The translations under genes and the position numbers were made by a program. The notes under the pieces are model-generated. The model did no database searches and was not told the DNA's origin. It saw only the letters and a list, made by a program, of their open reading frames with translations. From positions 1-38,538 of the forward strand of contig CAOKLO010000030.1 in assembly GCA_948469375.1 (NCBI GenBank): DNA of 38,538 bases, read 5' to 3'. Below are positions 24,711 to 38,538 of this stretch, piece by piece (within the stretch, counting starts at the first letter, position 1; each line of letters starts with the position of its first letter). Source of the DNA: an uncultured bacterium (GTDB taxonomy: Bacteria > Bacillota > Clostridia > Oscillospirales > Oscillospiraceae).

Positions 24711-25188
24711 CCGCTCCCGCCAGTACGTCGCTGGGGAAATGGACCCCGACGTACAGCCGGGACAGGCCCATGACTGCGGCCATGCACACCGCCGTGATCT
24801 TCATCCACCGCTTCGGCGCGGACATGCACACCCCCAGCGCAAAGGCAAAACCGGCGTTGGTGTGGCCGGAGGGGAAGGAATTTGGGTCATGCTCCGGCAC
24901 CAGATTGGCAAAATTCTCAATGACCAGCCAGGGCCTGGGCCGGGACACCAGGGGCTTGATGGTGAAATTCACCACAACCAGCCCAATGAGCATGGCGCAC
25001 AGCGCGGAAAAGCCCGCCTTCCGGGTGGGCTTGAACAGCAGCATCAGCACCCCCAGCACGATAAACAGCATCCCGGTGTTGCCCAGCTGGGTGTACAGCT
25101 TCATGAACGGGTCCAGCAGGGCGCAGCGTATGTGTTCCGCGATCCACACCAGCGCCTGCTCGTCGAATTGCTGAATGAAATCCGGCAT
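24622..25188 (-). CDS. PAP2-family membrane phosphatase
   Basis: A 188-aa membrane protein. Five to six hydrophobic helices carry the three PAP2 signature motifs: KPLVSRPRPW, the central PSGHTNAG, and SRLYVGVHFPSDVL with its catalytic His and Asp. Family members hydrolyse undecaprenyl pyrophosphate or phosphatidate-type lipids at the outer membrane face. Recycling of undecaprenyl carrier would fit the neighbouring wall-glycan genes (inference). I chose Met 25188 because GGAGGG lies 7 nt upstream; an in-frame Met at 25221 lacks such a site. It overlaps tcdA tail to tail and is divergent from the glycosyltransferase-CsaB gene. Confidence 0.92.
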   Translation of the reverse strand: MPDFIQQFDEQALVWIAEHIRCALLDPFMKLYTQLGNTGMLFIVLGVLMLLFKPTRKAGFSALCAMLIGLVVVNFTIKPLVSRPRPWLVIENFANLVPEHDPNSFPSGHTNAGFAFALGVCMSAPKRWMKITAVCMAAVMGLSRLYVGVHFPSDVLAGAVIGSLCGLLGAWVVGKAWEHIQARPQAPK

Positions 25189-25205
25189 CCTTGTCCCTCC
25201 TGACC

Positions 25206-25234
25206 TTGACCATCCGGTCAAAAATATGTATAAT
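25206..25234 (+). promoter_or_regulatory. Sigma-A promoter of the glycosyltransferase-CsaB operon, with a palindrome over the -35
   Basis: TTGACC (25206-25211) and TATAAT (25229-25234) are 17 bp apart. The -35 hexamer forms the left half of a perfect 6-bp inverted repeat, TTGACC-ATCC-GGTCAA (25206-25221), which could be a repressor site. Confidence 0.65.
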
Positions 25235-25248
25235 AAATACGTTCTGTC

Positions 25249-25277
25249 ATTTTACCCCATTCCTTGCCCCAAAGCAA
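25249..25277 (-). promoter_or_regulatory. Possible promoter of the PAP2 gene
   Basis: On the minus strand TTGCTT (25277-25272) and TAAAAT (25254-25249) are 17 bp apart, 61 bp before the start codon. It faces the promoter at 25206-25234, so the two transcripts would run through each other's promoter. Confidence 0.4.
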
Positions 25278-25298
25278 GTTTTTTATGGGAGGTTCCCT

Positions 25299-27548
25299 AT
25301 GAAAGTCATCCACCTCATCAGCGGCGGCGACACCGGCGGCGCGAAAACCCACGTTCACTCCCTGCTCCAGGGCTTGAACCAGCACATTCAGGCCGACATG
25401 GTTTGCTTTACCGACGGCCCCTTCACCCAGGAGGCCCGGGCGCTGGGTATCCATGTGGACGTGATGGCCGGCCGCAATCCCCTGTCCGCGCTGAAGCCTC
25501 TGCGGGAGAAAATCGCCCGGGATGGCTACGATATCATCCACTGCCACGGCGCCCGGGGCAACCTGATGGGCGCGCTGCTGCGCAAGTCAACCGGCCTGCC
25601 CGTGGTCACCACCGTCCACTCCGACCCAAAGCTGGACTATATGGGCCGCCCCCTGTCCGCGCTGACCTATGGCAATCTCAACGCCTGGGCCCTGCGGCGC
25701 ATCCCCTATAAAATCGGCGTGTCCGACGCCATGGGCAACCTACTCATCAGCCGGGGCTTTGACCCCCAGCAGATGTTCGCCATCTACAACGGGATCGACT
25801 TCACCCCCCGTGCCCCCAGCCTGACCCGCCGGGAATTTTTGGACAGCCTGGGGCTGGATTGGCCGGACGGCGTGGTCATCGCGGGCATCGCCGCACGGCT
25901 GAATCCAGTCAAGGACATGGGCACCCTGCTGCGGGGCTTCGCCATCGCCCACAAAACCCAGCCCCAGCTGCGCCTCATCATCGCCGGAGAGGGGCAGGAC
26001 GAGGCCATGTTAAAGGAGCTGGCCAACCAGCTGGGCGTGACAAATGAGGTTTGCTTTGCCGGGTGGCTCACCGACACCGACAGCTTTTACAACGCCCTGG
26101 ACATCAACACCCTTACCTCTTTGTCCGAGACCTTCCCCTACGCCCTCACCGAGGGGGCGCGGTTTGCCCTGCCCACCGTGGCCAGCCAGGTGGGCGGCGT
26201 GCCCTTCCTCATCCAGAGCCATGTCACCGGCCTGCTGTTTCAGCCCCGGGACCACGAGGCCCTGGGCCGCCACTTGGCCGCCTTGGCTGGGGACGCAGAC
26301 CTGCGCCGCCGTCTGGGGAGCCAGCTGCTGGAGAAGGGCCGGACCGAGTTTTCCATCAAGAGCACCATCTACCGTCAGCTGGCCATTTACAACGCCATTC
26401 TCCGGCGCCAGAAGCGGAAGGTCCAGCGCAGACGGGACGGCGTGGTGATCTGCGGAGCCTACGGCCGGGGCAACGCCGGAGACGAGGCCATTTTGACCGC
26501 CCTTGTCACCGAAATGCGGACCCTGGACCCAGACCTGCCCATCTGGATCATGACCCGAAAGCCCAAAACCACCCGCCTGCGCCACCGGGTGGGGGCCGTT
26601 TATACGTTTAACCTCCCCGCTTTTTGCGGCAAAATGGCGAAAAGCACGCTGTATATCAACGGCGGCGGCTCCCTGGTTCAGGACGTGACCAGCCACCGCT
26701 CCCTGTGGTTCTACCTGTTCACCCTGTCCGCCGCCAAGCGGCTGGGCTGCAAGGTGATGATGTACGGCTGCGGCATCGGCCCCATCCGCACACCCCGGAA
26801 CCGCCGCAAAACCGGGCGGGTCATCGACCGTTTTGTGGACAGCATCACCACCCGGGACAGCGCCTCCATCGACGAGCTGCGGGCTCTGGGCGTCAGCCGT
26901 CCCCAGGTGGTTTTGGCGGCGGACCCCGCCGTCACCCTCCCCGCCGCGCCGCCCCAGGCGGCGGACGCTCTGCTGGAGGAAATCGGCCTCCACCCTCAGA
27001 AGGGGGAGCGCTATCTGGGGGTCACCGTCCGGCCCTGGCCGGGGTTTGACGACAAGGCGTCCGCCTTCGCCGCCGCGGTGGACTACGCCTATCAGCGCTA
27101 TGACCTCATCCCCGTGTTCATCCCCATCGAGGGCAGGCCGGACGCCGCCGCCGCTCAAAAGGTGGCCGCGCACCTCCAATACGCTCCCGCCAACCTCTTA
27201 ACCTCCTGCCCCAGTACGGAGCTGGCCATCGCCCTGTCCGCCCGGATGGATGTGGCCCTGTCCATGCGCCTCCATGCCCTGATTTTTGCCGCCGTCCACG
27301 GCGTGCCCCTGGTGGGCGTGGTGTACGACCCCAAGGTCAGCGCCTTTTTGGACGACGCGGGCCAGGACCTTTACACCCAGCTGGACCAGGTCACGCCGGA
27401 GCTGCTGTGCGCTTTGGTGGACGCCGCCGCAGCCCGTCGTCAGGACAGTCAGGCGCTGGCGGAAAAAACCGCCCGGCTCATCCGGCTGGAGCGGGAGAAC
27501 AGCCGGACCGCAGCCCGGCTGCTGACCGGTTTGGAGGTTGACCCATGA
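25299..27548 (+). CDS. csaB: Fused GT4 glycosyltransferase - CsaB polysaccharide pyruvyltransferase
   Basis: A 749-aa fusion. Residues 1 to about 375 are a GT-B glycosyltransferase of family 4: N-terminal GGDTGGAKTHV, IYNGIDF at the domain junction, then GIAARLNPVKDMGTLL and the nucleotide-sugar loop SLSETFPYALTEGARFALP. Residues about 380-745 are a CsaB-type pyruvyltransferase: ICGAYGRGNAGDEAIL, INGGGSLVQDVTS, MMYGCGIGPI, TRDSASIDELRALGV, and MRLHALIFAAVHGVPLVGVV near the end. CsaB adds ketal pyruvate to secondary wall polymer, creating the ligand for SLH domains. Met 25299 was chosen because GGGAGG lies 6 nt upstream and the Rossmann fold begins at once. The next gene overlaps by ATGA. The fusion presumably couples building and pyruvylating the repeat unit. 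Confidence 0.93.
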   Translation: MKVIHLISGGDTGGAKTHVHSLLQGLNQHIQADMVCFTDGPFTQEARALGIHVDVMAGRNPLSALKPLREKIARDGYDIIHCHGARGNLMGALLRKSTGLPVVTTVHSDPKLDYMGRPLSALTYGNLNAWALRRIPYKIGVSDAMGNLLISRGFDPQQMFAIYNGIDFTPRAPSLTRREFLDSLGLDWPDGVVIAGIAARLNPVKDMGTLLRGFAIAHKTQPQLRLIIAGEGQDEAMLKELANQLGVTNEVCFAGWLTDTDSFYNALDINTLTSLSETFPYALTEGARFALPTVASQVGGVPFLIQSHVTGLLFQPRDHEALGRHLAALAGDADLRRRLGSQLLEKGRTEFSIKSTIYRQLAIYNAILRRQKRKVQRRRDGVVICGAYGRGNAGDEAILTALVTEMRTLDPDLPIWIMTRKPKTTRLRHRVGAVYTFNLPAFCGKMAKSTLYINGGGSLVQDVTSHRSLWFYLFTLSAAKRLGCKVMMYGCGIGPIRTPRNRRKTGRVIDRFVDSITTRDSASIDELRALGVSRPQVVLAADPAVTLPAAPPQAADALLEEIGLHPQKGERYLGVTVRPWPGFDDKASAFAAAVDYAYQRYDLIPVFIPIEGRPDAAAAQKVAAHLQYAPANLLTSCPSTELAIALSARMDVALSMRLHALIFAAVHGVPLVGVVYDPKVSAFLDDAGQDLYTQLDQVTPELLCALVDAAAARRQDSQALAEKTARLIRLERENSRTAARLLTGLEVDP

Positions 27549-28624
27549 AGCAGATCGTTTGCCTGGCCCACAAGCCCTGGCGGGCCCGCCCGGACCGCAC
27601 CCAGCAGCTGCTGGCCCGTCTGGGAAACGCGCAGATTTTGTTCTTCGAGCCCGCCCCCAAAAAAGGCGCGCCCATGCCCGAGCAGGGCCGCCGGGTGCGC
27701 GCCCACATCACCGTATACACCCTGCCCACCCCCCTGCCCTACCCGGAGGATACCTCCGTGCTCCAGCGGCGCAGGCTGGACAAGGCGTCGGATTTCATTC
27801 AGGAGATGATGGACAAGCACCACTTCCGTGAGCCGCTGCTGTGGTGCTCCTCCCCCCTTCACGCCCAATTTTTGGACAAGCTGGCTTACCGGGGTGTGGT
27901 ATACGACTGCCAATACTTCTGGAACGAGAACTTCCTGGACTGGGAAAGCGACCTGACCCGCAACGCCGACGTGGTGTTCGCCGCCTCCTTTGGCCTGACC
28001 CGGCGGCTGTCCCCCTACAGCGACAACATCGCTTTGCTGCCCAACGGGGTCAATCCGGTGCTGTTCCAGCAGAAGCAGCGGACCATCCCGCCCGAGCTGG
28101 CCGGCCTCCCCGGACAGCGGGTGCTGGGACGGCTGGGCAGCGTCACCGGGCAGGTGGACCTGGAGCCCCTGCTATACCTGGCCCGGCACCGGCCGGAGTG
28201 GACCTTTGTGCTCATGGGCCGGGTGACCCGGCCCGCAGCGGAGCAGCTGCGGGGGCAGGACAATATCGTGCTCACCGGGGCCGTCAACCCCCTGGACGTG
28301 CCTGACTACCTGTACCGTTGCGACCTGCTGTTCGACCTGGTCCGCTTTGACCGCCCTGGAAGCGACGTGGTGCCCAGCCGGGTCTATGAGTACCTGGCCA
28401 CGGGACGGCCCATCGTCACCGTGCTGGACCCCAGCGTGCCCGACGCCATCCCGGAGCTGATCTCCACTGCCTATGACGGCCCGGGCTTCCTGCGCCGGTG
28501 CAAGGCGGCCCTTGGGGAGGACCCCTCCCTCCCCCGGCGGCGGCGGGAGCTGGCCCGGCAGTCCTCCTGGACCAGCCGCGCCGCGCAGGTGTCCACCATT
28601 CTGGAGGCCACCGGGCTGTTTTGA
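27545..28624 (+). CDS. Glycosyltransferase, GT-B fold
   Basis: A 359-aa cytoplasmic transferase. The N-terminal half is divergent (starting MKQIVCLAHKPWRARPDRTQ), with LLWCSSPLHAQFL and GVVYDCQYFWNEN. The C-terminal half is clearer: ADVVFAASFGLTRRL, LLPNGVNPVLF (domain junction), LGRLGSVTGQVDLEPL, VLTGAVNPLDVPDYLYRCD and VPSRVYEYLATGRPIV (sugar-nucleotide loop). This pattern occurs in GT1/GT4-type enzymes of exopolysaccharide pathways. Its start overlaps the stop of the glycosyltransferase-CsaB gene, so it acts in the same wall-polymer pathway. The sugar and acceptor cannot be told from sequence. Confidence 0.85.
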   Translation: MKQIVCLAHKPWRARPDRTQQLLARLGNAQILFFEPAPKKGAPMPEQGRRVRAHITVYTLPTPLPYPEDTSVLQRRRLDKASDFIQEMMDKHHFREPLLWCSSPLHAQFLDKLAYRGVVYDCQYFWNENFLDWESDLTRNADVVFAASFGLTRRLSPYSDNIALLPNGVNPVLFQQKQRTIPPELAGLPGQRVLGRLGSVTGQVDLEPLLYLARHRPEWTFVLMGRVTRPAAEQLRGQDNIVLTGAVNPLDVPDYLYRCDLLFDLVRFDRPGSDVVPSRVYEYLATGRPIVTVLDPSVPDAIPELISTAYDGPGFLRRCKAALGEDPSLPRRRRELARQSSWTSRAAQVSTILEATGLF

Positions 28625-28679
28625 GGTTTTCGCCATTGACAGCCCTTCCCCGCCGCAGCGGATTGTATAAGCCTACGAA

Positions 28680-28713
28680 AATGGGAAAAGCCCTTGATTT
28701 CCCGTTCTTTTTT
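28680..28713 (+). terminator. Probable terminator of the glycosyltransferase operon
   Basis: A 9-bp stem (28680-28688 / 28698-28706) with a 9-nt loop is followed by TTTTTT. It overlaps the -35 element of the purine operon promoter. Confidence 0.55.
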
Positions 28714-28722
28714 AGCTAAAAT
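28694..28722 (+). promoter_or_regulatory. Sigma-A promoter of the purine operon
   Basis: TTGATT (28694-28699) and TAAAAT (28717-28722) are 17 bp apart. Transcription would start near 28730, giving a leader of about 160 nt before purE. No PurR-box-like repeat was recognised around it. Confidence 0.6.
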
Positions 28723-28747
28723 AGACTTAACTATTTGGAAATGAGGT

Positions 28748-28871
28748 GCCTGCATTGGAGCGTTTCTGTCGTGTCCGTCCGGGTTTCCGTCTCCAGGGCA
28801 TCATTGCGCCCAAATACTGAACTTGAGCAAAGCAGGCTGCCCGCTTATGCGCGGCGGCCTGTTTCATTTTT
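28748..28871 (+). promoter_or_regulatory. Candidate riboswitch/attenuator in the purE leader
   Basis: A terminator-like hairpin (12-bp stem 28833-28844 / 28849-28861 with one bulge and a 4-nt loop, then TTTCATTTTT) sits just before the purE ribosome binding site. Its 5' strand overlaps GCAGGC (28832-28837), which can instead pair with GCCTGC (28748-28753). That alternative stem would enclose two smaller stems (28756-28760 / 28791-28795 and 28796-28799 / 28808-28811), a three-way junction. The two states exclude each other, so forming the long-range stem would prevent termination and switch purE on. It does not match the purine (guanine/adenine) or ykkC/PRPP consensus as I know them. Pairings were found by eye. 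Confidence 0.5.
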
Positions 28872-28889
28872 CCAAAGGAGGACTCAAGC

Positions 28890-29384
28890 ATGAAAAAAGT
28901 CGCCGTCATCATGGGCTCCGACTCCGACTGGCCGGTGGTCAAGGGGGCCTGCGCCCAGCTCAAAGAGTTCGGCATTCCCTATGAGGCCCATATTTTAAGC
29001 GCCCACCGCACCCCCGCCGCCGCAGCCGAGTTCGCCAAAAGCGCCCGCGCCAACGGCTTCGGCGTGCTGATCTGCGCAGCGGGCATGGCCGCTCACCTGG
29101 CCGGGGCCTTCGCCGGGAACTCCACCCTGCCCGTCATCGGCATCCCCATGAAGGGCGGGGCCATGGACGGGCTGGACGCCCTGCTGGCCACCGTTCAAAT
29201 GCCCAGCGGCATTCCCGTGGCCACCGTGGCCATCAACGGGGCCAAAAACGCCGCCGTGCTGGCGGCCCAGATTCTGGCGGTGTCCGACGACGCGCTGGCG
29301 GCCAAGCTGGACGCCGCCCGAGAGAAGATGGCCGCGCAGATTTCTGAGAAGGAGGCCAAGCTCCAGAAGGAACTGGAGACATGA
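28890..29384 (+). CDS. purE: N5-carboxyaminoimidazole ribonucleotide mutase
   Basis: A 164-aa enzyme of de novo purine synthesis that makes CAIR. The signature residues are clear: MGSDSDWPVV at the N-terminus, then EAHILSAHRTP, CAAGMAAHLAGA, GIPMKGGAMDGLDALLATVQMPSGIPVATVAINGA-type active-site loops, and a charged C-terminal helix. Length is normal for class I/II PurE. No purK is adjacent; AIR carboxylation partner genes, if any, lie elsewhere. AAAGGAGG precedes the ATG. It is the first gene of the purine operon and follows the attenuator-like leader. Its stop codon overlaps the ATG of the next small frame. Confidence 0.97.
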   Translation: MKKVAVIMGSDSDWPVVKGACAQLKEFGIPYEAHILSAHRTPAAAAEFAKSARANGFGVLICAAGMAAHLAGAFAGNSTLPVIGIPMKGGAMDGLDALLATVQMPSGIPVATVAINGAKNAAVLAAQILAVSDDALAAKLDAAREKMAAQISEKEAKLQKELET

Positions 29385-29649
29385 GCCGAAAGGAAGAGCG
29401 GCGTCAATTTTACAGACTGTACGCCGATGTCGCCCGGGCATACCTCAAAAGCAAAAAAGTCCCCGTTACCACCTGAAAAAAGTCAGTGATATGGATGACA
29501 AACAGGTAATCCAGACTTGCCGCTTCTGGTATGAGCACAACAATCTGGTGGAGGATTTCCAGGCATTTCAATCGCTTTATTTTTCCCAGCATCAGGAAGA
29601 ATATCTGACAGTCTACCCAGTCAACAGAAAGGATGATAGCAATGAATAA
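29381..29649 (+). pseudogene. Small frameshifted gene between purE and purC
   Basis: ATG at 29381 overlaps the purE stop (ATGA) and opens a 31-codon frame, MSRKEERRQFYRLYADVARA..., closed by TGA at 29474. The -1 frame is open from the run of six As (29453-29458) to TAA at 29647, reading SPRYHLKKVSDMDDKQ, then CRFWYEHNNLVEDFQAFQSL, then [14 protein letters not shown]. That stop again overlaps the next start (purC, 29642). Joined across the A-run it would be a protein of about 88 aa with coding-like composition and coupling at both ends. Either a one-base deletion in the A-run killed it, or a -1 shift at C-AAA-AAA produces it. Family not recognised. It could also be a sequencing error in a homopolymer. 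Confidence 0.6.
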
Positions 29650-30352
29650 GATCGAGCAGCTCTATGAGGGCAAAGCCAAGAAAGTATTTTCCACCGAGGA
29701 CCCCAACGTGGTCATCGTGTCCTATAAGGACGACGCCACCGCCTTTGACGGGCTGAAAAAGGGCACCATTACCGGCAAGGGCGCCATCAACAACCAGATG
29801 ACCAACTTCCTCATGCAGCAGCTGGAGAAAGCGGGGGTTCCCACCCACTTTGTGGAGGAGCTGAATGAGCGTGAGACCGCCGTAAAGAAGGTGGACATCG
29901 TCCCCCTGGAGGTCATCATCCGCAACATCTCCGCCGGGTCCTTTGCCAAGCGCTACGGCGTGGAGGAGGGCATCGTGTTCGACGCACCCACGGTGGAGTT
30001 TTCTTACAAGAACGACGATTTGCACGATCCTCTCATCAACGACCACCACGCCGTGGCCCTGAAGCTGGCCACCTGGGAGGAGATCGCGCTCATCAAGAAG
30101 TACGCCTTCCAGGTCAACGACTTCCTCAAGGCGGAGCTTGCCGCCTGCGGCGTCACCCTGGTGGACTTCAAGCTGGAGTTCGGCAAGACCAGCCACGGGA
30201 CCATCGTGCTGGCCGACGAGATCTCTCCCGACACCTGCCGCTTCTGGGATTCCAAGACCGGCGAGAAGCTGGACAAGGACCGTTTCCGCCGGGACCTGGG
30301 CAACGTGGAGGGGGCTTACCAGGAGATGAGCCGCCGCCTCATGGGGAAATAA
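29642..30352 (+). CDS. purC: Phosphoribosylaminoimidazole-succinocarboxamide synthase (SAICAR synthetase)
   Basis: A 236-aa ligase joining CAIR and aspartate with ATP. Family motifs run from [16 protein letters not shown] (nucleotide-binding hairpin) through [46 protein letters not shown] and DPLINDHHA to [10 protein letters not shown] and [15 protein letters not shown]. Length is typical. I prefer Met 29642 over 29633 because AAAGGA lies 8 nt before it and the N-terminal motif begins there. The small upstream gene ends inside the first codons. The purF gene starts 3 bp after the stop. Confidence 0.97.
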
Positions 30353-30355
30353 GCG

Positions 30356-31777
30356 ATGGGCGGATTTTTTGGCGCGATTTCCAAGCGCGACGTCACCCTT
30401 GACATCTTCTTCGGCGTGGACTACCACTCCCACTTGGGTACCCGCCGGGGCGGCATGATTATCTACGACCAGCAAGACGGCTTTCAGCGGCAGATTCATT
30501 CCATCGAGAATACCCCCTTCCGCACCAAGTTCGAGAAGGATCTGACGGAATTCCACGGCTGTTCCGGCATCGGCTGCATCAGCGACACCGACCCTCAGCC
30601 CCTGCTGGTGCGCTCCCACCTGGGGCTGTACGCCATCTCCACCGTGGGCATCATCAACAACGACGAGGAGCTGGTGGAGGACTACTTCAACGGCCACGCC
30701 CGGCAGTTCATGGCCATGAGCTCGGGCAAGGTGAACGCCTGCGAGCTCACCGCCGCTTTGATCAACCAGAAGGACTCGCTGGTGGAGGGCATCCGGTACG
30801 CCCAGCAGGTCATCGACGGCTCGTCCACCATCCTCATCCTCACCCCCGACGGCATCGTGGCCGCCCGGGACAAGCTGGGCCGCCTGCCGGTGCTGATCGG
30901 GCAGAACAGCGAGGGCTGCTGCGTGTCCTTTGAATCCTTCGCCTGCACCAAGATCGGCTATGACAACGCCTACGAGCTGGGCCCCGGCGAGATCGTCCGG
31001 GTCACCGCCGACGGCTGGGAGACCCTGGCCCCCGCCGGGGACAAGATGCGCATCTGCGCCTTTTTGTGGACCTACTACGGCTACCCCAACTCCAACTACG
31101 AGGGGCAGAACGTGGAGGTCATGCGCTGCCGCAACGGCGAGATCATGGCCCGCTCGGAAAAGGCGGCGGGCGGCCTGCCCGACGTGGACTGGGTGGCGGG
31201 CGTGCCCGACTCCGGCGTGCCCCACGCCATCGGCTACGCCAACGCCAGCGGCAAGCCCTTCGCCCGGCCCTTCGTGAAGTACACCCCCACCTGGCCCCGG
31301 TCCTTCATGCCCGCCTCCCAGGAGGTGCGCAACCAGGTGGCCAAGATGAAGCAGATCCCCGTCCCCGAGCTGATCCAGGGCAAAAAGCTTTTGTTCGTGG
31401 ACGACTCCATCGTCCGGGGCACCCAGCTGCGGGGGACGGTGGACTTCCTCTACGGCGCGGGGGCCAGGGAGGTCCATATGCGCTCCGCCTGCCCCCCCAT
31501 CATGTACGGCTGCAAGTTTTTGAACTTCTCCCGCAGCAACTCCGACATGGAGCTATTGGCCCGGAGCATCGTCCAGGAGCTGGAGGGTGACGAGGGCCAG
31601 GAGCACCTGGAGGAGTACGCTGACGGAACTACCCAGCGAGGGCAGTGTATGCTCAAGGCCATCTGCGACAAACTGGGCTTCGACTCCCTGGGCTACCAGT
31701 CCCTGGACGGCCTGCTGGAGGCCATCGGCATCGACCGGGACAAGGTGTGTACCTATTGCTGGACAGGTAAGGAATAA
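30356..31777 (+). CDS. purF: Amidophosphoribosyltransferase-like protein lacking the Cys nucleophile
   Basis: A 473-aa PurF homologue, first committed enzyme of purine synthesis. The C-terminal phosphoribosyltransferase domain is intact (PRPP loop LLFVDDSIVRGTQLRG; VAGVPDSGVPHAIGYA). The N-terminal class II glutaminase fold is recognisable but begins MGGFFGAISKRD, where classical PurF has MCGVFG or a propeptide followed by CGVFG: the catalytic Cys is Gly. Upstream sequence offers no alternative start, since purC ends 3 bp before. Yet the four cysteines aligning with the [4Fe-4S] ligands of B. subtilis PurF are kept: C234 (MRICAF), C386 (YGCKF), C465 and C468 (CTYCWTG). It likely uses free ammonia or another glutaminase (inference). 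It is the only PurF-like gene in this operon. Confidence 0.88.
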   Translation: MGGFFGAISKRDVTLDIFFGVDYHSHLGTRRGGMIIYDQQDGFQRQIHSIENTPFRTKFEKDLTEFHGCSGIGCISDTDPQPLLVRSHLGLYAISTVGIINNDEELVEDYFNGHARQFMAMSSGKVNACELTAALINQKDSLVEGIRYAQQVIDGSSTILILTPDGIVAARDKLGRLPVLIGQNSEGCCVSFESFACTKIGYDNAYELGPGEIVRVTADGWETLAPAGDKMRICAFLWTYYGYPNSNYEGQNVEVMRCRNGEIMARSEKAAGGLPDVDWVAGVPDSGVPHAIGYANASGKPFARPFVKYTPTWPRSFMPASQEVRNQVAKMKQIPVPELIQGKKLLFVDDSIVRGTQLRGTVDFLYGAGAREVHMRSACPPIMYGCKFLNFSRSNSDMELLARSIVQELEGDEGQEHLEEYADGTTQRGQCMLKAICDKLGFDSLGYQSLDGLLEAIGIDRDKVCTYCWTGKE

Positions 31778-31882
31778 GTGCGTCCGAGCCGTCGTCCCTT
31801 TGCCAAACCGAAGCCCAGCGAAGCGGGAGCCGAGCGGACTTTGCGGTGACGCGGCGAGGCGCAGCTGCATGGAGGTCATATA

Positions 31883-32920
31883 ATGAACAACTCACATTCA
31901 AAATCCTACGCCGCTGCGGGCGTGGACATTGAGGCCGGGTACAAGGGCGTCCAGCTCATGCAAAAGCATGTGGCGCGCACCATGATCCCCGGCGTGGTCA
32001 GCGGCATCGGCGGCTTCGGCGGGCTGTTCGCCCCGGACCTTGCCGGTATGAAGGAACCCATTCTGGTGTCCGGCACCGACGGCGTGGGCACTAAAATCCG
32101 GGTCGCTCAGCTTATGAACGAGCACAACACCATCGGCATCGACTGCGTGGCCATGTGCGTCAACGATATCGTATGCTGCGGCGCCAAGCCCCTGTTTTTT
32201 CTGGACTATATCGCCATCGGCAAGAACGACCCGGAAAAGGTGGCCTCCATCGTCTCCGGCGTGGCGGAGGGCTGCGTCCAGGCTGGCTGCGCCCTCATCG
32301 GCGGCGAGACCGCCGAGCATCCCGGCGTCATGGCCCCTGACGACTACGACCTGGCGGGCTTCGCCGTGGGCATTGTGGACAAGGAAAAGATGATCGAGCC
32401 CTCCATGGTGAAGGCCGGTGACGTCATCATTTCCCTGGGCTCCAACGGCCTGCACTCCAACGGCTTCTCCCTGGTGCGCAAGGTACTGGATATCGAGCAC
32501 GCCAAGCTGGACCAGTGGAGCGAGGAGCTGGGCGGCGAGTTGGGCGGTGTACTGCTTCAGCCCACCAAGATTTACGTCAAGCCCGTGCTGGCCGCCATGG
32601 AGGCCGCCCGGGTCCACGGCGTCAGCCACATCACCGGCGGCGGGTTCTACGAAAATATCCCCCGCTGCCTGCCCAAGGGAATGGCCGCCAAAATTGACAA
32701 GTCCGCCCTGTGGATCGACCCCATTTTCCGCATGATTCAGCGGGCGGGAGATATCCCTGAGCGGGATATGTTCAACACCTTCAACATGGGTGTCGGCATG
32801 GTGCTCATCGTGGACAAAAACGACGTGGACAAGGCCGAGGCCGCCCTCAACAGTCAGGGGCAGGGTATGCGCGTCATCGGCGAGGTGGTCTCCGGCGACG
32901 GAGGTGTGGAGCTGGTATGA
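31883..32920 (+). CDS. purM: Phosphoribosylformylglycinamidine cyclo-ligase (AIR synthetase)
   Basis: A 345-aa enzyme that closes the imidazole ring to give AIR. Landmarks: the N-terminal YAAAGVDIEAGYKGV, then GGFGGLFAPDL, VSGTDGVGTKIRVAQ, DCVAMCVNDIVCCGAKPLFFLDYIA, LIGGETAEHPGVM and the C-terminal HITGGGFYENIPRCLP and FNMGVGMVLIV. Length is normal. GGAGG lies 7 nt before the ATG. A 105-bp spacer without a gene or terminator separates it from purF, the longest gap within the operon up to this point apart from the frameshifted segment. Its stop overlaps the purN start (ATGA). Confidence 0.97.
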   Translation: MNNSHSKSYAAAGVDIEAGYKGVQLMQKHVARTMIPGVVSGIGGFGGLFAPDLAGMKEPILVSGTDGVGTKIRVAQLMNEHNTIGIDCVAMCVNDIVCCGAKPLFFLDYIAIGKNDPEKVASIVSGVAEGCVQAGCALIGGETAEHPGVMAPDDYDLAGFAVGIVDKEKMIEPSMVKAGDVIISLGSNGLHSNGFSLVRKVLDIEHAKLDQWSEELGGELGGVLLQPTKIYVKPVLAAMEAARVHGVSHITGGGFYENIPRCLPKGMAAKIDKSALWIDPIFRMIQRAGDIPERDMFNTFNMGVGMVLIVDKNDVDKAEAALNSQGQGMRVIGEVVSGDGGVELV

Positions 32921-33579
32921 GCGCCAAGCGCATCGCCGTGCTGGTCTCCGGCGGCGGGACCAACCTTCAGGCCCTCATCGACGCCCAGCGCCGGGGGGAG
33001 ATCGTCAATGGGGAGATCGCCGCCGTCATCGCCTCCAAGCCCGGGGCCTACGCCCTGGAGCGGGCCAGTCGGGCCGGCATCCCCGGCTACGTGGTGGCCC
33101 GGAAGGACTACCCCGACAGCCGGACCATGACCATGGCCCTGGTGGACAAGCTCAGATCGCTGGACATCGACCTGGTGGTGCTGGCCGGGTTCATGGTCAT
33201 CCTGACAGAGGAGATGGTGCGGGCCTACCCCAACGCCATTTTGAACGTCCACCCCGCCCTCATCCCCTCCTTCTGCGGCGAGGGGTACTACGGACTCCAC
33301 GTCCACGAGAAAGCGCTGGAATATGGAGTCAAGGTGTCCGGCGCCACCGTCCATTTCGTCAGCGAAGAGTGCGATGGTGGGCCCATCGTGCTGCAAAAGG
33401 CGGTGCCGGTAGAGGAAAGCGACACCTCGGAGTCCCTCCAGCGCCGCATCATGGAGCAGGCGGAGTGGGTGATCCTGCCCCGGGCGGTGTCCCTGTTCTG
33501 CCAGGGCCGCTTGAGGGTGGAGGGCCGCACCGTCCGGATTTTGAAGCCGCTGAATCTATCAAAGGAGTGTCTGCAATGA
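32917..33579 (+). CDS. purN: Phosphoribosylglycinamide formyltransferase (GAR transformylase)
   Basis: A 220-aa 10-formyl-THF-dependent enzyme. Motifs: IAVLVSGGGTNLQALIDA at the N-terminus, AGFMVILTEEMV, the active-site block ILNVHPALIPSFCGEGYYG with Asn and His, then GATVHFVSEECDGGPIVLQ with the catalytic Asp. It is slightly longer than E. coli PurN because of a basic C-terminal extension (RLRVEGRTVRILKPLN). The start overlaps purM and the stop overlaps the IMP cyclohydrolase gene, both as ATGA, so translation of the three is coupled. Confidence 0.96.
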   Translation: MSAKRIAVLVSGGGTNLQALIDAQRRGEIVNGEIAAVIASKPGAYALERASRAGIPGYVVARKDYPDSRTMTMALVDKLRSLDIDLVVLAGFMVILTEEMVRAYPNAILNVHPALIPSFCGEGYYGLHVHEKALEYGVKVSGATVHFVSEECDGGPIVLQKAVPVEESDTSESLQRRIMEQAEWVILPRAVSLFCQGRLRVEGRTVRILKPLNLSKECLQ

Positions 33580-34280
33580 TCGACGTCAACGAGTATTTAC
33601 AGAGCAACCCCTACCCCGGCCGGGGCATTATGATCGGCCGCGACAACCACAACAAATATGCCGTCATCGCCTATTTCATCATGGGCCGCAGCGAGAACAG
33701 CCGCAACCGCGTCTTTGAGGAGACGGAGGACGGCATCCGCACCAAGGCCTTCGACGAGTCCAAAATGACCGACCCCTCCCTCATCATATACCACCCCGTG
33801 CGGCGGATGGACAACGGCATCACCATCGTTACCAACGGCGACCAGACCGACACCATTCGGGACAACATTTTGCAGGGCCACTGCTACCGCCACGCTCTGA
33901 ACACCCGCACCTTCGAGCCCGACGGCCCCAACTATACCCCCCGCATCTCCGGCGTGGTGAAGCCCAACGGCTCCTACGACCTGTCCATCCTCAAAAGCCT
34001 GGACGGCGACCCCTCCTGTGCCTGCCGGTACTTCTACGAGTACGACGCCCCCAAGGCGGGGGCAGGCCACTTCATCCACACCTATGAGCGGGACGGGGAC
34101 CCCCTGCCCTCCTTTGAGGGCGAACCCCGGATGGTGTCCGTCACCGCCCCCGACGCGGAGACGCTGGCAAACGATCTGTGGCTGGCGCTGAACGAGGATA
34201 ACAAGGTGTCGTTGTTCGTGCGGTACATCGACCTGGAAACCGGGGACGACGAGACTTCCATCATCAACAAGCACTGGTAA
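33576..34280 (+). CDS. IMP cyclohydrolase, PurO-like stand-alone type
   Basis: A 234-aa protein of the IMP_cyclohyd (PF07826-like) fold, known from archaeal PurO, which closes the purine ring of FAICAR to IMP. Visible features are the N-terminal YPGRGIMIGRDN, the early NSRNRVF segment, MTDPSLIIYHPVR, TNGDQTDTI, and the NYTPRISGV region. Most bacteria use the N-terminal domain of bifunctional PurH for this step; here no such domain is attached to the AICAR transformylase encoded 215 bp downstream, so this gene supplies the missing activity. AAGGAG precedes the ATG, which overlaps the purN stop. Function follows from family resemblance and operon context. Confidence 0.88.
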   Translation: MIDVNEYLQSNPYPGRGIMIGRDNHNKYAVIAYFIMGRSENSRNRVFEETEDGIRTKAFDESKMTDPSLIIYHPVRRMDNGITIVTNGDQTDTIRDNILQGHCYRHALNTRTFEPDGPNYTPRISGVVKPNGSYDLSILKSLDGDPSCACRYFYEYDAPKAGAGHFIHTYERDGDPLPSFEGEPRMVSVTAPDAETLANDLWLALNEDNKVSLFVRYIDLETGDDETSIINKHW

Positions 34281-34311
34281 AGCAAACGTTTATGGAGGAG
34301 AGGACTTCAAG

Positions 34312-34464
34312 ATGAAGGATTGGCAAACGCTCATTGGCGCGGTCATTATTGGTGCTGCCATCATCGGCGCCGCATTGATTTTATCCGGCGCTGCATTGAC
34401 GTTATCTGATGCCATTCGCTATTGCGGTGAAGCAATAAATGCCGGATTTACCTTGGTACGTTAA
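34312..34464 (+). CDS. 50-aa single-helix membrane peptide in the purine operon
   Basis: A small gene of 50 codons between the IMP cyclohydrolase and AICAR transformylase genes. GGAGGAGAGG lies 8 nt before the ATG. The peptide opens MKDWQTLIGAVIIGAA and is one long hydrophobic helix rich in Ala, Ile and Gly up to about residue 32, followed by a short polar end with one Cys. Its base composition is more AT-rich than the flanking purine genes, which hints at a different history. No family recognised. It could be a membrane-anchored accessory peptide, a toxin-like peptide or a passenger; being inside an operon with tight spacing argues that it is expressed. Confidence 0.7.
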   Translation: MKDWQTLIGAVIIGAAIIGAALILSGAALTLSDAIRYCGEAINAGFTLVR

Positions 34465-34494
34465 TCAAAATTCCAATTTTGAGGAGGCTTAACT

Positions 34495-35667
34495 ATGACC
34501 GAACTGGAACTGAAATACGGCTGCAACCCCAACCAGAAGCCCGCCCGCATTTTTATGGAGGATGGCGAGCTGCCCCTTGAAGTTCTCAACGGCAAGCCGG
34601 GGTACATCAATTTCATGGACGCGCTGAACTCCTGGCAGCTGGTCAAGGCCCTGAAAAAGTCCACCGGCCTGCCCGCCGCCGCCTCCTTCAAGCACGTTTC
34701 CCCTGCTGGAGCGGCACTGGGCCTGCCCCTGAGCGACGTGGAACGGCACATCTACTTTGCCCCCGAGGGTGCGCTTTCCCCCATCGCCTGCGCCTATATC
34801 CGCGCCCGAGGCGCGGACCGGCTGTGCTCTTTCGGCGACTGGGCGGCTCTGTCCGACGTGTGCGACGCCGATACCGCCCGGTTCCTGGCCCTGGAGGTGT
34901 CCGACGGCGTGATCGCCCCCGGCTACACCGACGAGGCGCTGGAGATCCTTAAGACCAAGCGCAAGGGCGGCTATAACGTGGTCAAGATCGACCCGGACTA
35001 CACCCCCGCCCCCATCGAGCGGCGGAATATTTTCGGCATCACCTTTGAGCAGGGGTACAACGACCTGGCCATCGACGAAAAAATGCTGGCGAACATCGTC
35101 ACCACCAACAGGGACCTGCCCGAAAGCGCCAAACACGATATGCTGCTGTCCCTCATCACGCTGAAATACACCCAGTCCAATTCGGTGTGCTACGTAAAGG
35201 ATGGCATGACCATCGGCGTAGGTGCGGGCCAGCAGAGCCGTATCCACTGCACCCGTCTGGCGGGCAACAAGGCGGACATCTGGTGGCTGCGGCAGCATCC
35301 AAAGGTGCTGGGCCTCCAGTTTGTGGACGGCATCCGCCGCCCCGACCGGGACAACGCCATCGACCTGTACATCTCCGACGAGCACGACGACGTGTTGGCC
35401 GAGGGCGTGTGGCAGAACACCTTCCAGGTGCGCCCGGAGGTGCTCACCGAACAGGAGAAAAAGGACTGGATTGCCCAGATGTCCGGCGTGACGGTGGGCT
35501 CCGACGCCTTCTTCCCCTTTGGGGACAATGTGGAGCGGGCGTTCAAGTCCGGGGCAAAGTATATCGCCCAGCCCGGCGGCTCTATCCGGGACGACCAGGT
35601 CATTGCCACTGCCGACAAGCACGATATGGTGATGGCGTTCACCGGGATGCGGCTGTTCCACCATTGA
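34495..35667 (+). CDS. purH: AICAR transformylase, stand-alone (PurH C-terminal domain type)
   Basis: A 390-aa enzyme transferring formyl from 10-formyl-THF to AICAR. It corresponds to the C-terminal (transformylase) part of PurH only: LKYGCNPNQKPARIF at the start, the catalytic Lys-His in SFKHVSPAGAA, then CSFGDWAALSDVCDADTARF, ERRNIFGITFEQGYND, LKYTQSNSVCYVKDGMTIGV-type substrate loop, GAGQQSRIHCTRLAG, SDAFFPFGDNVERA and GGSIRDDQVI. The N-terminal IMP cyclohydrolase domain of bifunctional PurH is absent; that role falls to the gene at 33576-34280. GAGGAGG precedes the ATG. The next small gene starts 2 bp after the stop. Confidence 0.95.
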   Translation: MTELELKYGCNPNQKPARIFMEDGELPLEVLNGKPGYINFMDALNSWQLVKALKKSTGLPAAASFKHVSPAGAALGLPLSDVERHIYFAPEGALSPIACAYIRARGADRLCSFGDWAALSDVCDADTARFLALEVSDGVIAPGYTDEALEILKTKRKGGYNVVKIDPDYTPAPIERRNIFGITFEQGYNDLAIDEKMLANIVTTNRDLPESAKHDMLLSLITLKYTQSNSVCYVKDGMTIGVGAGQQSRIHCTRLAGNKADIWWLRQHPKVLGLQFVDGIRRPDRDNAIDLYISDEHDDVLAEGVWQNTFQVRPEVLTEQEKKDWIAQMSGVTVGSDAFFPFGDNVERAFKSGAKYIAQPGGSIRDDQVIATADKHDMVMAFTGMRLFHH

Positions 35668-35669
35668 GC

Positions 35670-35903
35670 ATGAGCGAACAGGAACGGCTGGCCGCCTTTG
35701 AGCGGATGCTGGCGGACGTTCAGAAAAGCTACGGTGAGCTGACCGCCCGCATGGAGCGGCTGAAGGCGGAGAAAAAGGAAAAAACCGCCACCTTCCGGCA
35801 GTATTGGAGCAATAAAATGACCTGTCAATATATGCTGTCCATGTATCAACAGTATGGGCTGATTGAACCTTCAGCCCTGGAAAACGGGGGTAAAAACGTA
35901 TGA
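35670..35903 (+). CDS. 77-aa charged helical protein between purH and purD
   Basis: A 77-codon gene starting 2 bp after the AICAR transformylase stop and ending with an ATGA overlap into purD. The sequence MSEQERLAAFERMLADVQ, then YGELTARMERLKAEKKEK, then YWSNKMTCQYMLSMYQQYG is strongly helical, with heptad-like spacing in the first half suggesting a coiled coil. No signal peptide or membrane segment. It is vaguely like small DUF4298-type proteins but I cannot assign it. The spacing at both ends indicates a genuine, translationally coupled operon member; a scaffold or regulator of the purine enzymes is possible but purely speculative. Confidence 0.72.
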   Translation: MSEQERLAAFERMLADVQKSYGELTARMERLKAEKKEKTATFRQYWSNKMTCQYMLSMYQQYGLIEPSALENGGKNV

Positions 35904-37156
35904 AAGTATTGGTGGTAGGCGGCGGCGGCCGGGAGCACGCCATCTGCTGGAAGCTGGCCCAATCGCCTAACGTGACGGAGCTGTACTGCGCCCCCGGCAA
36001 CGCGGGCATCGCCCAAGTGGCAAAATGCGTCAACATCAAAGCCATCGATGTGGACAGCATGGTGAACTGGGCCAGAGACAACGCCATAGAGTTCGTGGTG
36101 GTGGCCCCGGACGATCCCCTGGCCCTGGGCATGGTGGACGCGCTGGAGAAGGCGGGTATCCCCGCCTTCGGCCCCAGGGCGAATGCCGCCGTTATCGAGG
36201 CCAGCAAGGCATTTTCTAAGGAATTGATGAAAAAATACCACATCCCCACCGCAAGCTATGAGACGTTCACCGACCTGGACAAGGCACTGGCCTATATTGA
36301 GGAGCAGGGCGCCCCCATCGTGGTGAAGGCGGACGGGCTGGCTTTGGGCAAGGGCGTGGTGGTGGCCTCCACCGTGGACGAGGCCAAAACCGCCGCCCGG
36401 GAAATGATGGCGGACAAAAAATTCGGCGAATCCGGCTCCACCGTGGTCATCGAGGAGTGCATGACCGGCCCTGAGGTGACGGTGCTGGCCTTTGCCGACG
36501 GGGAACACGTATCCACCATGCCCGCCAGCCAGGATCACAAGCGGGCCTATGACGGCAACAAAGGCCCCAACACCGGCGGCATGGGGGCCATTGCTCCCCC
36601 GCCCCAGTACACAGCCGAGGTAGCCAAGCGGTGTATGGAGGAGATCTTTCAGCCCACTGTAGCCGCATTGAAGGCGGAGGGTCGGCCCTTCCATGGGGTC
36701 ATCTACTTTGGGCTGATGCTCACCCCGGACGGTCCCCGCGTGGTAGAGTACAACGCCCGGTTCGGCGACCCGGAGTGTCAAGCGGTGCTGTCCCTGCTGG
36801 AGAGCAATCTGATGGACATCTTCATCGCCTGCCGTGAGGGAACGCTGGACAAACTGGATATCCGGTGGAAAAATCAGGCCGCCTGCTGTCTGGTGCTGGC
36901 CTCCGGCGGCTATCCGCTGGACTACAAAAAGGGCTGTCCCATCTCCGGCTTGGAGGAGGCGGGCAAGTCTGCCGTCGTGTTCCACGCAGGCACCGCCGAG
37001 AAAGACGGTCAGATTGTCACCAGCGGGGGCCGTGTGCTGGGCGTCACCGCTCAGGGTAGCACCCTGGAGCAGGCCATCGCCAACGCCTATACCGCCGCCA
37101 AGCCCATCTCGTTCCAGAACATGCACTACCGGACGGACATCGGGCACGCATTTTAA
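35900..37156 (+). CDS. purD: Phosphoribosylamine-glycine ligase (GAR synthetase)
   Basis: A 418-aa ATP-grasp enzyme. N-terminal VLVVGGGGREHAICWKL and APGNAGIAQ, then VVVAPDDPLALGMVDAL, the ATP-grasp core PIVVKADGLALGKGVVVA, EECMTGPEVTVLAF, QDHKRAYDGNKGPNTGGMGA, and the metal-binding EYNARFGDPECQAVL. Length is standard. Its start overlaps the preceding small gene. It is the last purine gene; no terminator directly follows, and the next strong one is at 37837, beyond plasmid-type remnants, so a debris-containing 3' end of the operon mRNA is expected. Confidence 0.97.
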   Translation: MKVLVVGGGGREHAICWKLAQSPNVTELYCAPGNAGIAQVAKCVNIKAIDVDSMVNWARDNAIEFVVVAPDDPLALGMVDALEKAGIPAFGPRANAAVIEASKAFSKELMKKYHIPTASYETFTDLDKALAYIEEQGAPIVVKADGLALGKGVVVASTVDEAKTAAREMMADKKFGESGSTVVIEECMTGPEVTVLAFADGEHVSTMPASQDHKRAYDGNKGPNTGGMGAIAPPPQYTAEVAKRCMEEIFQPTVAALKAEGRPFHGVIYFGLMLTPDGPRVVEYNARFGDPECQAVLSLLESNLMDIFIACREGTLDKLDIRWKNQAACCLVLASGGYPLDYKKGCPISGLEEAGKSAVVFHAGTAEKDGQIVTSGGRVLGVTAQGSTLEQAIANAYTAAKPISFQNMHYRTDIGHAF

Positions 37157-37182
37157 CACAACCGCCACATGGGAAAGGGGCG

Positions 37183-37451
37183 CGTTGGAGGGAGAGGACC
37201 TTCTTCCCGCCAACATCGAGCTGTCTGGCCTGGAGGTCACGCTGGTGAACACTATGAGCCGGGAAACCGTTCTGCGGGAATATCTGAACATAGTCCGGGA
37301 CCAGTACGATGTGATCCTGCTGGACTGCTGCCCTTCCCTGGGTATGCTCACCATCAATGCCCTGGCTGCCGCTGACGAGGTGCTGGTTCCCATGCAGGCG
37401 CACTATCTTTCTTTGAAAGGCTTTGAGCAGCTTGTTCGCACCATAGCATAG
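37183..37451 (+). pseudogene. Internal fragment of a ParA/Soj partition ATPase
   Basis: In frame from about 37183 to a stop at 37449-37451 the sequence reads EGEDLLPANIELSGLEV, then LVNTMSRETVLREYLNIV, then DVILLDCCPSLGMLTINALA and DEVLVPMQAHYLSLKGFEQL. This is the central part of ParA proteins of conjugative elements: the Walker A' Asp region (LLDCCPSLG) and the VPMQA strand are present. The N-terminal P-loop and the C-terminal third are missing. It starts about 25 bp after purD with no start codon of its own, and ends where ParB sequence begins, so an internal deletion fused the two genes. Confidence 0.82.
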
Positions 37452-37453
37452 CG

Positions 37454-37831
37454 TTGACAAAGCTGATCCCACCTCTGCTGGCTATGGTAGACGAGGACAA
37501 GCTGGCTGTGAGCGTCACCGCAGATTTTATCGCAGTTCTTCCGCAAAATGAGCAAACAGACCTTTTCACTGTCATGAACAAGCTGAATGTGATCCCTGCC
37601 AAAAGTCAGCTTGTGCGCATGAAACAGTACAGCAAGGACGGCACTCTGACCATCACTGTCATTGACGCCATACTGTCCGAGACAAAGCCCGTTCTGACCC
37701 AGTTCACGTTGAAGAAAGACCGTTTACAGCACTATTTCCCGCCGTCCTATACATCCAGCCAGATCGAGGAGGTCATCATCTCCCTGCTGGACGGATGGAA
37801 AGCGCATAATATGAAAGAGAATCTATCGTAG
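37454..37831 (+). pseudogene. C-terminal fragment of a ParB-type partition protein
   Basis: The frame from a TTG at 37454 reads LIPPLLAMVDEDKLAVSVTA, then FIAVLPQNEQTDLFTVMNKL, KLNVIPAKSQLVRMKQYS and later KKDRLQHYFPPSYTSSQIEEVI, the tail of ParB/RepB proteins of Firmicutes conjugative elements (helical dimerisation and C-terminal region). The nuclease-like and helix-turn-helix parts are gone. There is no ribosome binding site. Upstream in the same frame only a few codons precede the ParA fragment's end, so this is the other side of the ParA-ParB deletion. A strong terminator follows. Confidence 0.78.
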
Positions 37832-37836
37832 ATATG

Positions 37837-37879
37837 AGCCCCCGGCAACTGACTAAAATCAGTTGCCGGGGGCTTTTTT
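37837..37879 (+). terminator. Strong rho-independent terminator
   Basis: A perfect 16-bp stem (37837-37852 / 37859-37874) with a 6-nt loop is followed by TTTTT. It ends the purine operon plus parAB remnants. Confidence 0.95.
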
Positions 37880-37899
37880 CATGTTTGGAGGAATTGGTC

Positions 37900-38029
37900 A
37901 TGTCATTACATTTGGATTACTACTACGGCGCGGAAGCGGAGCAGTACAGCTTCTACCGCGTTCCCAAGACCCTGCTCACCGATCCCCGCTACAAGCTACA
38001 AGGGCGTTTCCATTGAGGCCAAGGTGCTG
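37900..38029 (+). pseudogene. Broken N-terminus of a RepA-like replication initiator
   Basis: After GGAGG, the ATG at 37900 starts MSLHLDYYYGAEAEQYSFYR, then VPKTLLTDPRYK, the characteristic beginning of replication initiator protein A of Firmicutes plasmids and conjugative elements. The next residues should be GVSIEAKVL; they appear one frame away because CTACAAG is duplicated in tandem (37989-37995 and 37996-38002). The resumed frame stops matching after KVLF (about 38029). Order parA-parB-terminator-repA is the usual backbone order in such elements, supporting a decayed element. Confidence 0.8.
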
Positions 38030-38114
38030 TTCATTGACGGGGAACATTGTCCCAATCTTTTTGTATTCAGCATTGTATGGAATGCTTTGGAAAAACAGCT
38101 GTGGGGAGGCCGGT

Positions 38115-38538
38115 ATGAACGCGCAAGAAATCAAGAACATTTTGATCGCCTATCTGAGGGCAACCAACCGTGAGATCCGGATCTATCAGGAAAAAAGCAT
38201 CGGCGACGCGGTGTGCGACCTGATGGCGGTGACAGACTGCCTGACGGGCTACGAGATCAAAAGCGATTTGGACAATTACCAACGGCTGGGTCGTCAAATA
38301 AAGGCCTACGACCGCTTTTTTGAGCAATGCTATATCGTCGTCGGCTGCCGCCACCTCCAATCGGCGGAGCGGAAGGTGCCCGGCAACTGGGGGATCATCA
38401 CCATTCAAAGCGACCATGTCATTGTCAACCGCCCCGCCCACGCTGGGAACCCGGACTGCGCCAGCCAGCTGGGCGCCCTCTGGAAACTGGAGCTGACCAA
38501 CCTGCTGATCAAAACCGGCCTCCCGCTGTACACCTATA
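38115..38538 (+). CDS. sce7726-like protein with PD-(D/E)XK nuclease fold (3' end outside window)
   Basis: ATG at 38115 (GGGAGG 5 nt upstream) opens a frame still open at the window end, 141 codons so far. It reads MNAQEIKNILIAYL, then SIGDAVCDLMAVTDCLTGYE followed by IKSDLDNYQRL, then RQIKAYDRFFEQCYIVVG. The spacing of Asp (VCD) to Glu-x-Lys (YEIKSD) is that of PD-(D/E)XK nucleases, and the context around it is like sce7726/MmcB-type proteins found in mobile and defence regions. The downstream part (VPGNWGIITI) continues the family pattern. Unlike the preceding fragments it appears intact. Function beyond a nuclease fold is unknown. Confidence 0.7.
   Translation, partial: MNAQEIKNILIAYLRATNREIRIYQEKSIGDAVCDLMAVTDCLTGYEIKSDLDNYQRLGRQIKAYDRFFEQCYIVVGCRHLQSAERKVPGNWGIITIQSDHVIVNRPAHAGNPDCASQLGALWKLELTNLLIKTGLPLYTY

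Follow-up and report, generated by a model that had tools for sequence, protein, structure and literature searches.

Purine synthesis is taught to begin, at its first committed step, with a glutamine-dependent reaction, and ammonia-using alternatives to glutamine-dependent enzymes are represented by AsnA, which has an unrelated fold, and by NH3-dependent NadE. A crenarchaeal PurF homolog, PurF', has reportedly been described by Brown and co-authors. One paper on this protein presents it as lacking the N-terminal cysteine, lying near pur genes and occurring once per genome beside PurF, and its authors suggest, as a proposal, that it is an ammonia-dependent PRPP aminotransferase (PMC3261824). 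The same paper refers to an E. coli PurF in which replacement of Cys1 abolished the use of glutamine and left an ammonia-dependent activity (as cited in PMC3261824). Open-access literature listings, in which subscription papers are mostly uncovered, contained no report of a bacterial family of Cys-less or ammonia-dependent PurF proteins.

The gene considered here lies among purine genes in the window, by which is meant the whole stretch of DNA that was analyzed (38,538 nucleotides). PurFx is used as a working name for the clade of Cys-less PurF homologs that includes its product. The 473-residue translation begins with MGGFFGAISK, and the Gly after the initiator Met, in place of a Cys nucleophile, can thus be read in it as the original prediction had stated. 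A start further upstream is impossible because the TAA of purC is an in-frame stop located two codons 5' of the ATG (...AAA TAA GCG ATG GGC GGA), which bears out the claim that no alternative start exists. The NCBIfam PurF equivalog TIGR01134 matches the protein over nearly its whole length and gives 178.5 bits, against a cut-off of 350. B. subtilis PurF (1ao0) was the closest solved structure in a profile search. An AlphaFold2 model (pLDDT 88.1, pTM 0.87, with the lowest confidence at residues 308-316) predicted the two-domain fold of PurF, and the top 17 chains found with it by Foldseek were all PurF, the best being 1ao0 (TM 0.81/0.84, 27% identity).

Table. Features of the window at and around purFx (domain limits of the former glutaminase are those set in this analysis)
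Feature	Position	Strand	Remark
6S RNA	21896-22103	+	49.9 bits, gathering score 46.4
purE	28890-29384	+	TIGR01162
purC	29633-30352	+	TIGR00081
In-frame TAA, stop of purC	30350-30352	+	two codons 5' of the purFx ATG
purFx, PurF homolog, 473 aa	30356-31777	+	MGGFFG start, without glutaminase nucleophile
Former class II glutaminase (Ntn) domain, residues 2-225	30359-31030	+	catalytic and Gln-binding residues replaced
Family motif DYHSHLGT, residues 22-29	30419-30442	+	x-x-LQHRGQ in canonical PurF
Cys234	31055-31057	+	aligns with Fe-S ligand
KYTPTWPRSF, residues 308-317	31277-31306	+	counterpart of flexible catalytic loop KNRYIGRTF
PRPP-binding loop VDDSIVRGT, residues 348-356	31397-31423	+	intact
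Cys379	31490-31492	+	invariant in PurFx
Cys386	31511-31513	+	aligns with Fe-S ligand
Cys465-x-x-Cys468	31748-31759	+	align with last two Fe-S ligands
purM	31883-32920	+	TIGR00878
purN	32917-33579	+	TIGR00639
PurO-type IMP cyclohydrolase	33576-34280	+	PF07826
Stand-alone AICAR formyltransferase	34495-35667	+	NF005492
purD	35900-37156	+	TIGR00877; consumes phosphoribosylamine
ParA-like AAA_31 fragment	37158-37448	+	profile positions 79-164 of 177

Alignment of 71 distinct PurFx sequences with 89 canonical PurFs from the same order revealed that the loss at the glutaminase site is wider than first claimed, extending beyond the nucleophile to the glutamine-binding positions. Of the aligned PurFx sequences, 66 have Gly and 5 have Ser at the nucleophile position; across the 87 PurFx copies in which the N-terminus is covered, this position is Gly in 82, Ser in 5 and never Cys. 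Canonical R27, N102 and D127, which are glutamine-binding residues of PurF, are each present in 89/89 canonical sequences. In PurFx, the R27 position is Leu in 71/71, the N102 position is Val, Ile or Thr in 71/71, and the D127 position is Ser (34), Ala (13; also the residue of the window protein), Pro (9), Gln (6), Thr (4), Asp (2), His (2) or Cys (1). Furthermore, the H71 position is occupied by Cys74 in 70/71 PurFx sequences, and gaps lie opposite canonical R73, Y74, T76 and G78, presumably part of the glutamine loop.

The synthase site, by contrast with the glutaminase site, is kept. The original prediction of an intact PRPP loop holds across the family (D349 in 70/71; D350, R354 and G355 in 71/71), and K308, R315 and K332 are conserved in 71/71. 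The segment KYTPTWPRSF, with its invariant Trp313, is one residue longer than its canonical counterpart. The four cysteines C234, C386, C465 and C468 align, as had been proposed, with those of B. subtilis PurF 1ao0; they are conserved in the family (C234 and C386 in 71/71, C465 and C468 in 70/71, the missing row being gapped), and the corresponding positions are Cys in 89/89 canonical PurFs. The cysteines for a B. subtilis-type cluster are present in PurFx, and the Fe-S cluster itself is predicted. A further cysteine, C379, located seven residues before the ligand C386, is invariant in PurFx (71/71) and replaced by Ala or Ser in 89/89 canonical PurFs.

PurFx is an old and separate clade, neither an error nor a lone mutant, and chance is not an issue for its pattern. 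A branch with 100/100 support (total length about 5.4 changes per column) separated the 36 PurFx from the 23 canonical PurFs included in a tree. PurFx was found in 134/245 genomes of the order (E below 1e-100; three copies cut by contig ends), and a scan of one genome per species for 84,980 species confirmed at least 594 stretches as relatives, the best 80 of which were retained. With the separate clade, these counts substantiate the earlier suggestion of a family-wide trait rather than a mutation. The holders include many gut and rumen records. Seven Coriobacteriia copies (from Adlercreutzia, Olsenella, Thermophilibacter and others) group together inside the Bacillota copies, and this nesting suggests that they were acquired by horizontal transfer.

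These results bear on the alternative that an ordinary PurF was sequenced or annotated wrongly at codon 2. The assembly of the window's genome is fragmented and has 6.24% contamination, which would favor such an error, but this explanation is hardly conceivable given the in-frame stop upstream, Gly or Ser in 87/87 copies, the at least 594 confirmed relatives and the fully supported separate clade. A missed start is ruled out by the same stop and counts, and a true Cys at codon 2, which would have undone the prediction, is excluded by the Gly or Ser found in these copies and by the confirmed relatives. A recent pseudogene was also considered and rejected, in view of the age of the clade and because dN was below dS in both domains in 7/9 pairs with relatives, dS being not estimable in the other two.

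Canonical PurF, called by the TIGR01134 cut-off, was found in 157 of the same 245 genomes. Seventy-one genomes have PurFx only, 62 both forms and 95 canonical PurF only; one (G205) has PurFx and a canonical fragment. The other 16 have neither PurFx nor a full canonical PurF, 2 of them carrying a canonical fragment and 14 neither form (G014, G021, G042, G057, G065, G071, G073, G099, G102, G114, G174, G224, G243, G244); a full purD is kept in some of these 14, such as G014, G021 and G073. Estimated completeness of the 71 PurFx-only genomes is at least 90% in 46, at least 95% in 32 and at least 99% in 9. A purD match at E below 1e-150 was obtained in 67 of the 71, with weaker matches in G152 and G200 and only a trace in G020 and G185.

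Canonical PurF accompanies PurFx in 18 of the 24 named-record genomes that carry PurFx (11/15 and 7/9), while six are PurFx-only: Adlercreutzia equolifaciens DFI.6.87 (L217), Evtepia gabavorous KLE1738 (L228), and records from Oscillospiraceae (L213), Coriobacteriaceae (L216), Intestinimonas (L190) and Oscillibacter (L204). Ruminococcus flavefaciens was rejected as a clean example because its PurFx assembly also has canonical PurF. The search for a second, canonical purF advised in the original prediction located one in the window's own genome, whose assembly is fragmented and 6.24% contaminated; its ORF starts 61 bases 3' of an Amt-PII ORF. Three genomes of the same genus with 0-1% contamination likewise carry both forms.

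The co-occurrence of both forms in 62/134 PurFx genomes is what might be expected if PurFx were a regulatory or structural pseudoenzyme and phosphoribosylamine came from canonical PurF or another route, and dead paralogs often become regulators. This explanation is very unlikely, however, as canonical PurF is missing from 71/134 genomes, of which 67 possess purD, while the PRPP loop is conserved and the protein shows no sign of decay.

The location of canonical PurF was compared using loci from 60/62 genomes with both forms and 20/95 canonical-only genomes; PurFx loci were drawn from 37/71 PurFx-only genomes and 3 that have both forms. In 15/60 loci the two genes are found together, mostly in the purine operon; the other 45, a cut pair (L121) among them, were counted as apart. 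Within 7.5 kb of canonical PurF, at least one nitrogen-assimilation or glutamine-amidotransferase gene was present in 32/45 of the "apart" loci versus 2/20 canonical-only loci (Fisher p 6e-6, with related genomes not independent of one another and the gene list drawn up after the neighbor clusters had been seen). Conversely, at least two pur neighbors were found in 4/45 versus 17/20 loci. The gene list comprised CTP synthase, AsnB, glutamine synthetase, GOGAT parts, CarA, CarB, GuaA and Amt-PII. Clusters were named by profile from one representative each: PyrG, AsnB, CarA and Amt scored over the profile cut-off, a glutamine-synthetase relative and a GOGAT part scored under it, and GSIII, a GOGAT glutaminase domain, a GXGXG part, CarB and GuaA were the other clusters so named. 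Neighbor counts are low in both groups because ORFs were called as longest frames, an approach that overlooks some genes where the locus is GC-rich. DapL was a further neighbor, in 16/45 apart loci. An Amt fused to a P-II domain lies near canonical PurF in two loci (L066, 7643-8845; L122, 4310-6061), and the L066 gene may begin upstream of the tested piece.

Genes of nitrogen assimilation were also surveyed in 78 hand-chosen genomes, 26 per class. GOGAT (PF01645, E below 1e-100) was present in 3/26 PurFx-only genomes, 26/26 with both forms and 22/26 canonical-only genomes. The corresponding counts were 3/26, 18/26 and 19/26 for Amt, and 10/26, 20/26 and 22/26 for GlmS over its cut-off. For phylogenetic pairing, 11 independent pairs differing in canonical PurF were taken from the PurFx tree of 52 PurFx genomes. 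GOGAT changed in the same direction as canonical PurF in 9.8 pairs on average and in the opposite direction in 0 (median p about 0.002). After pairing, neither Amt (5.2 with, 1.0 against, median p 0.22) nor GlmS (3.1 with, 1.0 against, median p 0.63) was significant, and their loss, clear in the raw counts, was dropped as an additional marker. Because only GOGAT survives pairing, GlmS, another class II glutamine amidotransferase, serves as a control. In line with these results, GOGAT was found in 1/6 PurFx-only named records (L204) and in 15/18 with both forms (Fisher p 0.007).

Exceptions occur in both directions, GOGAT being kept in PurFx-only genomes G015, G019, G232 and L204 and absent from L221, L222 and L198, in which both PurFs are present. 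GOGAT and canonical PurF are sometimes neighbors, and one deletion could remove them together; such a deletion would show that canonical PurF was dispensable there rather than what nitrogen source PurFx uses. A gene of the glutamate/leucine/phenylalanine/valine dehydrogenase family was found in 52/52 PurFx genomes, which is compatible with ammonia assimilation of the glutamate dehydrogenase type, although the profile does not separate that enzyme from leucine, phenylalanine or valine dehydrogenases.

A separate observation concerns GlmS. No GlmS was found at E below 1e-60 in 16/26 PurFx-only genomes (G017, G019, G020, G038, G060, G076, G103, G111, G143, G144, G155, G171, G177, G191, G236, G239), in which glucosamine-6-phosphate may be made without glutamine or salvaged. 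At G009:C22, G116:C51, G041:C3 and G178:C9 there are frames of 351-375 aa whose match to the GlmS profile is confined to its second half, from about position 235, and which have no glutaminase half.

Considered together, PurFx is probably an ammonia-dependent PRPP aminotransferase that forms 5-phosphoribosylamine for PurD from PRPP and free NH3. PRPP would be bound in the conserved site and attacked by free NH3, and the resulting phosphoribosylamine would be handed to PurD. No new chemistry would be needed, since the Cys-less E. coli PurF loses glutamine, not ammonia, as donor. In genomes with both forms, PurFx would act when ammonia is plentiful and canonical PurF when it is scarce, with glutamine from glutamine synthetase as the nitrogen carrier; cells living at low ammonia would keep canonical PurF with GS/GOGAT. 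Lineages that lost GOGAT have mostly lost canonical PurF too. This regulatory idea leaves unexplained the 15/60 loci in which the two genes lie together. Catalysis by PurFx, NH3 as its donor and the division between the two forms by ammonia level are inferred, whereas the genomic patterns themselves were observed directly. The ammonia-dependent route is favored by the 71 PurFx-only genomes, 67 with purD, by the move of canonical PurF to nitrogen-assimilation neighborhoods, and by the loss of canonical PurF together with GOGAT. These three lines lend support to one half of the initial proposal of a separated or ammonia-dependent route; the other half, a separated route, found none, as no glutaminase apart from PurL was recognized among the neighbor families that recur beside PurFx in 37 PurFx-only loci.

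That second half corresponds to an alternative in which PurFx is the synthase part of a split glutamine amidotransferase, fed with NH3 by a separately encoded glutaminase. Many amidotransferases work as two subunits, and other glutaminases occur in some PurFx-only cells, including GlmS in 10/26. Glutamine is still used elsewhere in the pathway: in 5/37 PurFx-only loci PurFx has a nearby PurL, which possesses a glutaminase of its own. However, this was the only glutaminase recognized among neighbor families present in at least 3 of the 37 loci, and PurL, as FGAM synthase, serves its own step. A split enzyme is unlikely also because PurFx keeps its own former glutaminase domain, folded and conserved, and because it does not predict joint loss with GOGAT.

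In PurFx, 56/224 columns of the former glutaminase domain are invariant at 97% or more, as compared with 54 for the same columns in canonical PurF, and 28 of the 56 invariant residues differ from the canonical majority. Because conservation equals that of canonical PurF while half of the invariant residues differ, the N-terminal domain has been rewritten and is not decaying. D22-Y23-H24-S25-H26, H48 and D77 are invariant in both PurFx alignments, and some of them align with the old glutamine site; in the DYHSHLGT motif, residues 22-28 are invariant and T29 is present in 68/71.

Such conservation could reflect a new active site, in which the rewritten pocket uses a nitrogen donor other than glutamine or free ammonia. 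Both the extent of the invariant, non-canonical positions and the seven residues just named speak for this explanation. It is nonetheless quite unlikely: no class II nucleophile stands at position 2, the best conserved new cysteine of the domain, Cys74, is Val in 1/71 sequences, and the joint loss with GOGAT points to ammonia. Alternatively, and as a doubtful extension of the ammonia-dependent reading, the former glutaminase domain may have been rebuilt as a putative ammonium port. The same seven residues would bind NH4+, deprotonate it and pass the NH3 on to the former channel, by analogy with Amt transporters, in which twin histidines handle NH4+. PurFx would then be a natural ammonia-fed first purine enzyme with a dedicated NH4+ site, common to gut Bacillota and Coriobacteriia.

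The purine operon described originally as complete contains purE, purC, purFx, purM, purN, genes for an IMP cyclohydrolase and an AICAR formyltransferase, and purD, but neither purL nor purB was seen among the ORFs of window positions 25000-38538. The functions of PurH are split between the PurO-type cyclohydrolase and the separate formyltransferase, look-alikes of which recur in 33 and 42 neighbor loci, respectively. The PurO-type enzyme has been called an archaeal signature (PMC3261824). The AAA_31 fragment lies directly 3' of purD, and a second full purD is present in the window's own genome, on C133; with the 6.24% contamination, these features may point to a mobile element or a mixed assembly at the right end of the contig. 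No RNA switch was found 5' of either the purine operon or canonical PurF in a search of the window and six loci at Rfam gathering thresholds, which returned only the 6S RNA and a cobalamin riboswitch.

A glutaminase-less PurFx occurs in many bacteria of the gut and rumen and is the only version found in dozens of genomes, which suggests that these organisms use ammonia directly to begin making purines. A majority of the genomes sampled from the order (134/245), along with Coriobacteriia, seem to run the first purine step on ammonia, judging from their gene content. About half of the PurFx holders (71/134) show no glutamine-dependent PurF, and 23 of the 26 such genomes tested have no GOGAT. Rumen ruminococci require ammonia, and PurFx offers a possible reason why some gut and rumen anaerobes might do so; the literature listing, as far as it extends, contained nothing direct on this link. 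Furthermore, metabolic models of the gut could be led astray where PurFx is annotated as an ordinary purF.

PurFx shares with the B. subtilis-type PurF (1ao0/1gph) its fold, PRPP loop, four Fe-S cysteines and place in a purine operon. It differs from this enzyme in having neither the Cys nucleophile nor a propeptide, in the replacement of its glutamine-binding residues and partial loss of the glutamine loop, in missing the equivalog cut-off by half and in forming a separate clade. The E. coli PurF changed at Cys1 is a laboratory mutant with a dead glutaminase, whereas PurFx is a natural clade with a rewritten N-terminal domain. In contrast to AsnA and NadE, PurFx lies within a glutamine-dependent family and has kept the former glutaminase domain. 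It resembles crenarchaeal PurF', as that protein has been described, in being a PurF homolog without the N-terminal Cys encoded near pur genes (PMC3261824); PurFx is bacterial and PurF' crenarchaeal. Unlike PurF', which was reported once per genome beside PurF (PMC3261824), PurFx is often the only PurF found, 71/134 genomes having no canonical PurF over the cut-off. PurFx makes the question raised by PurF' testable in cultured bacteria.
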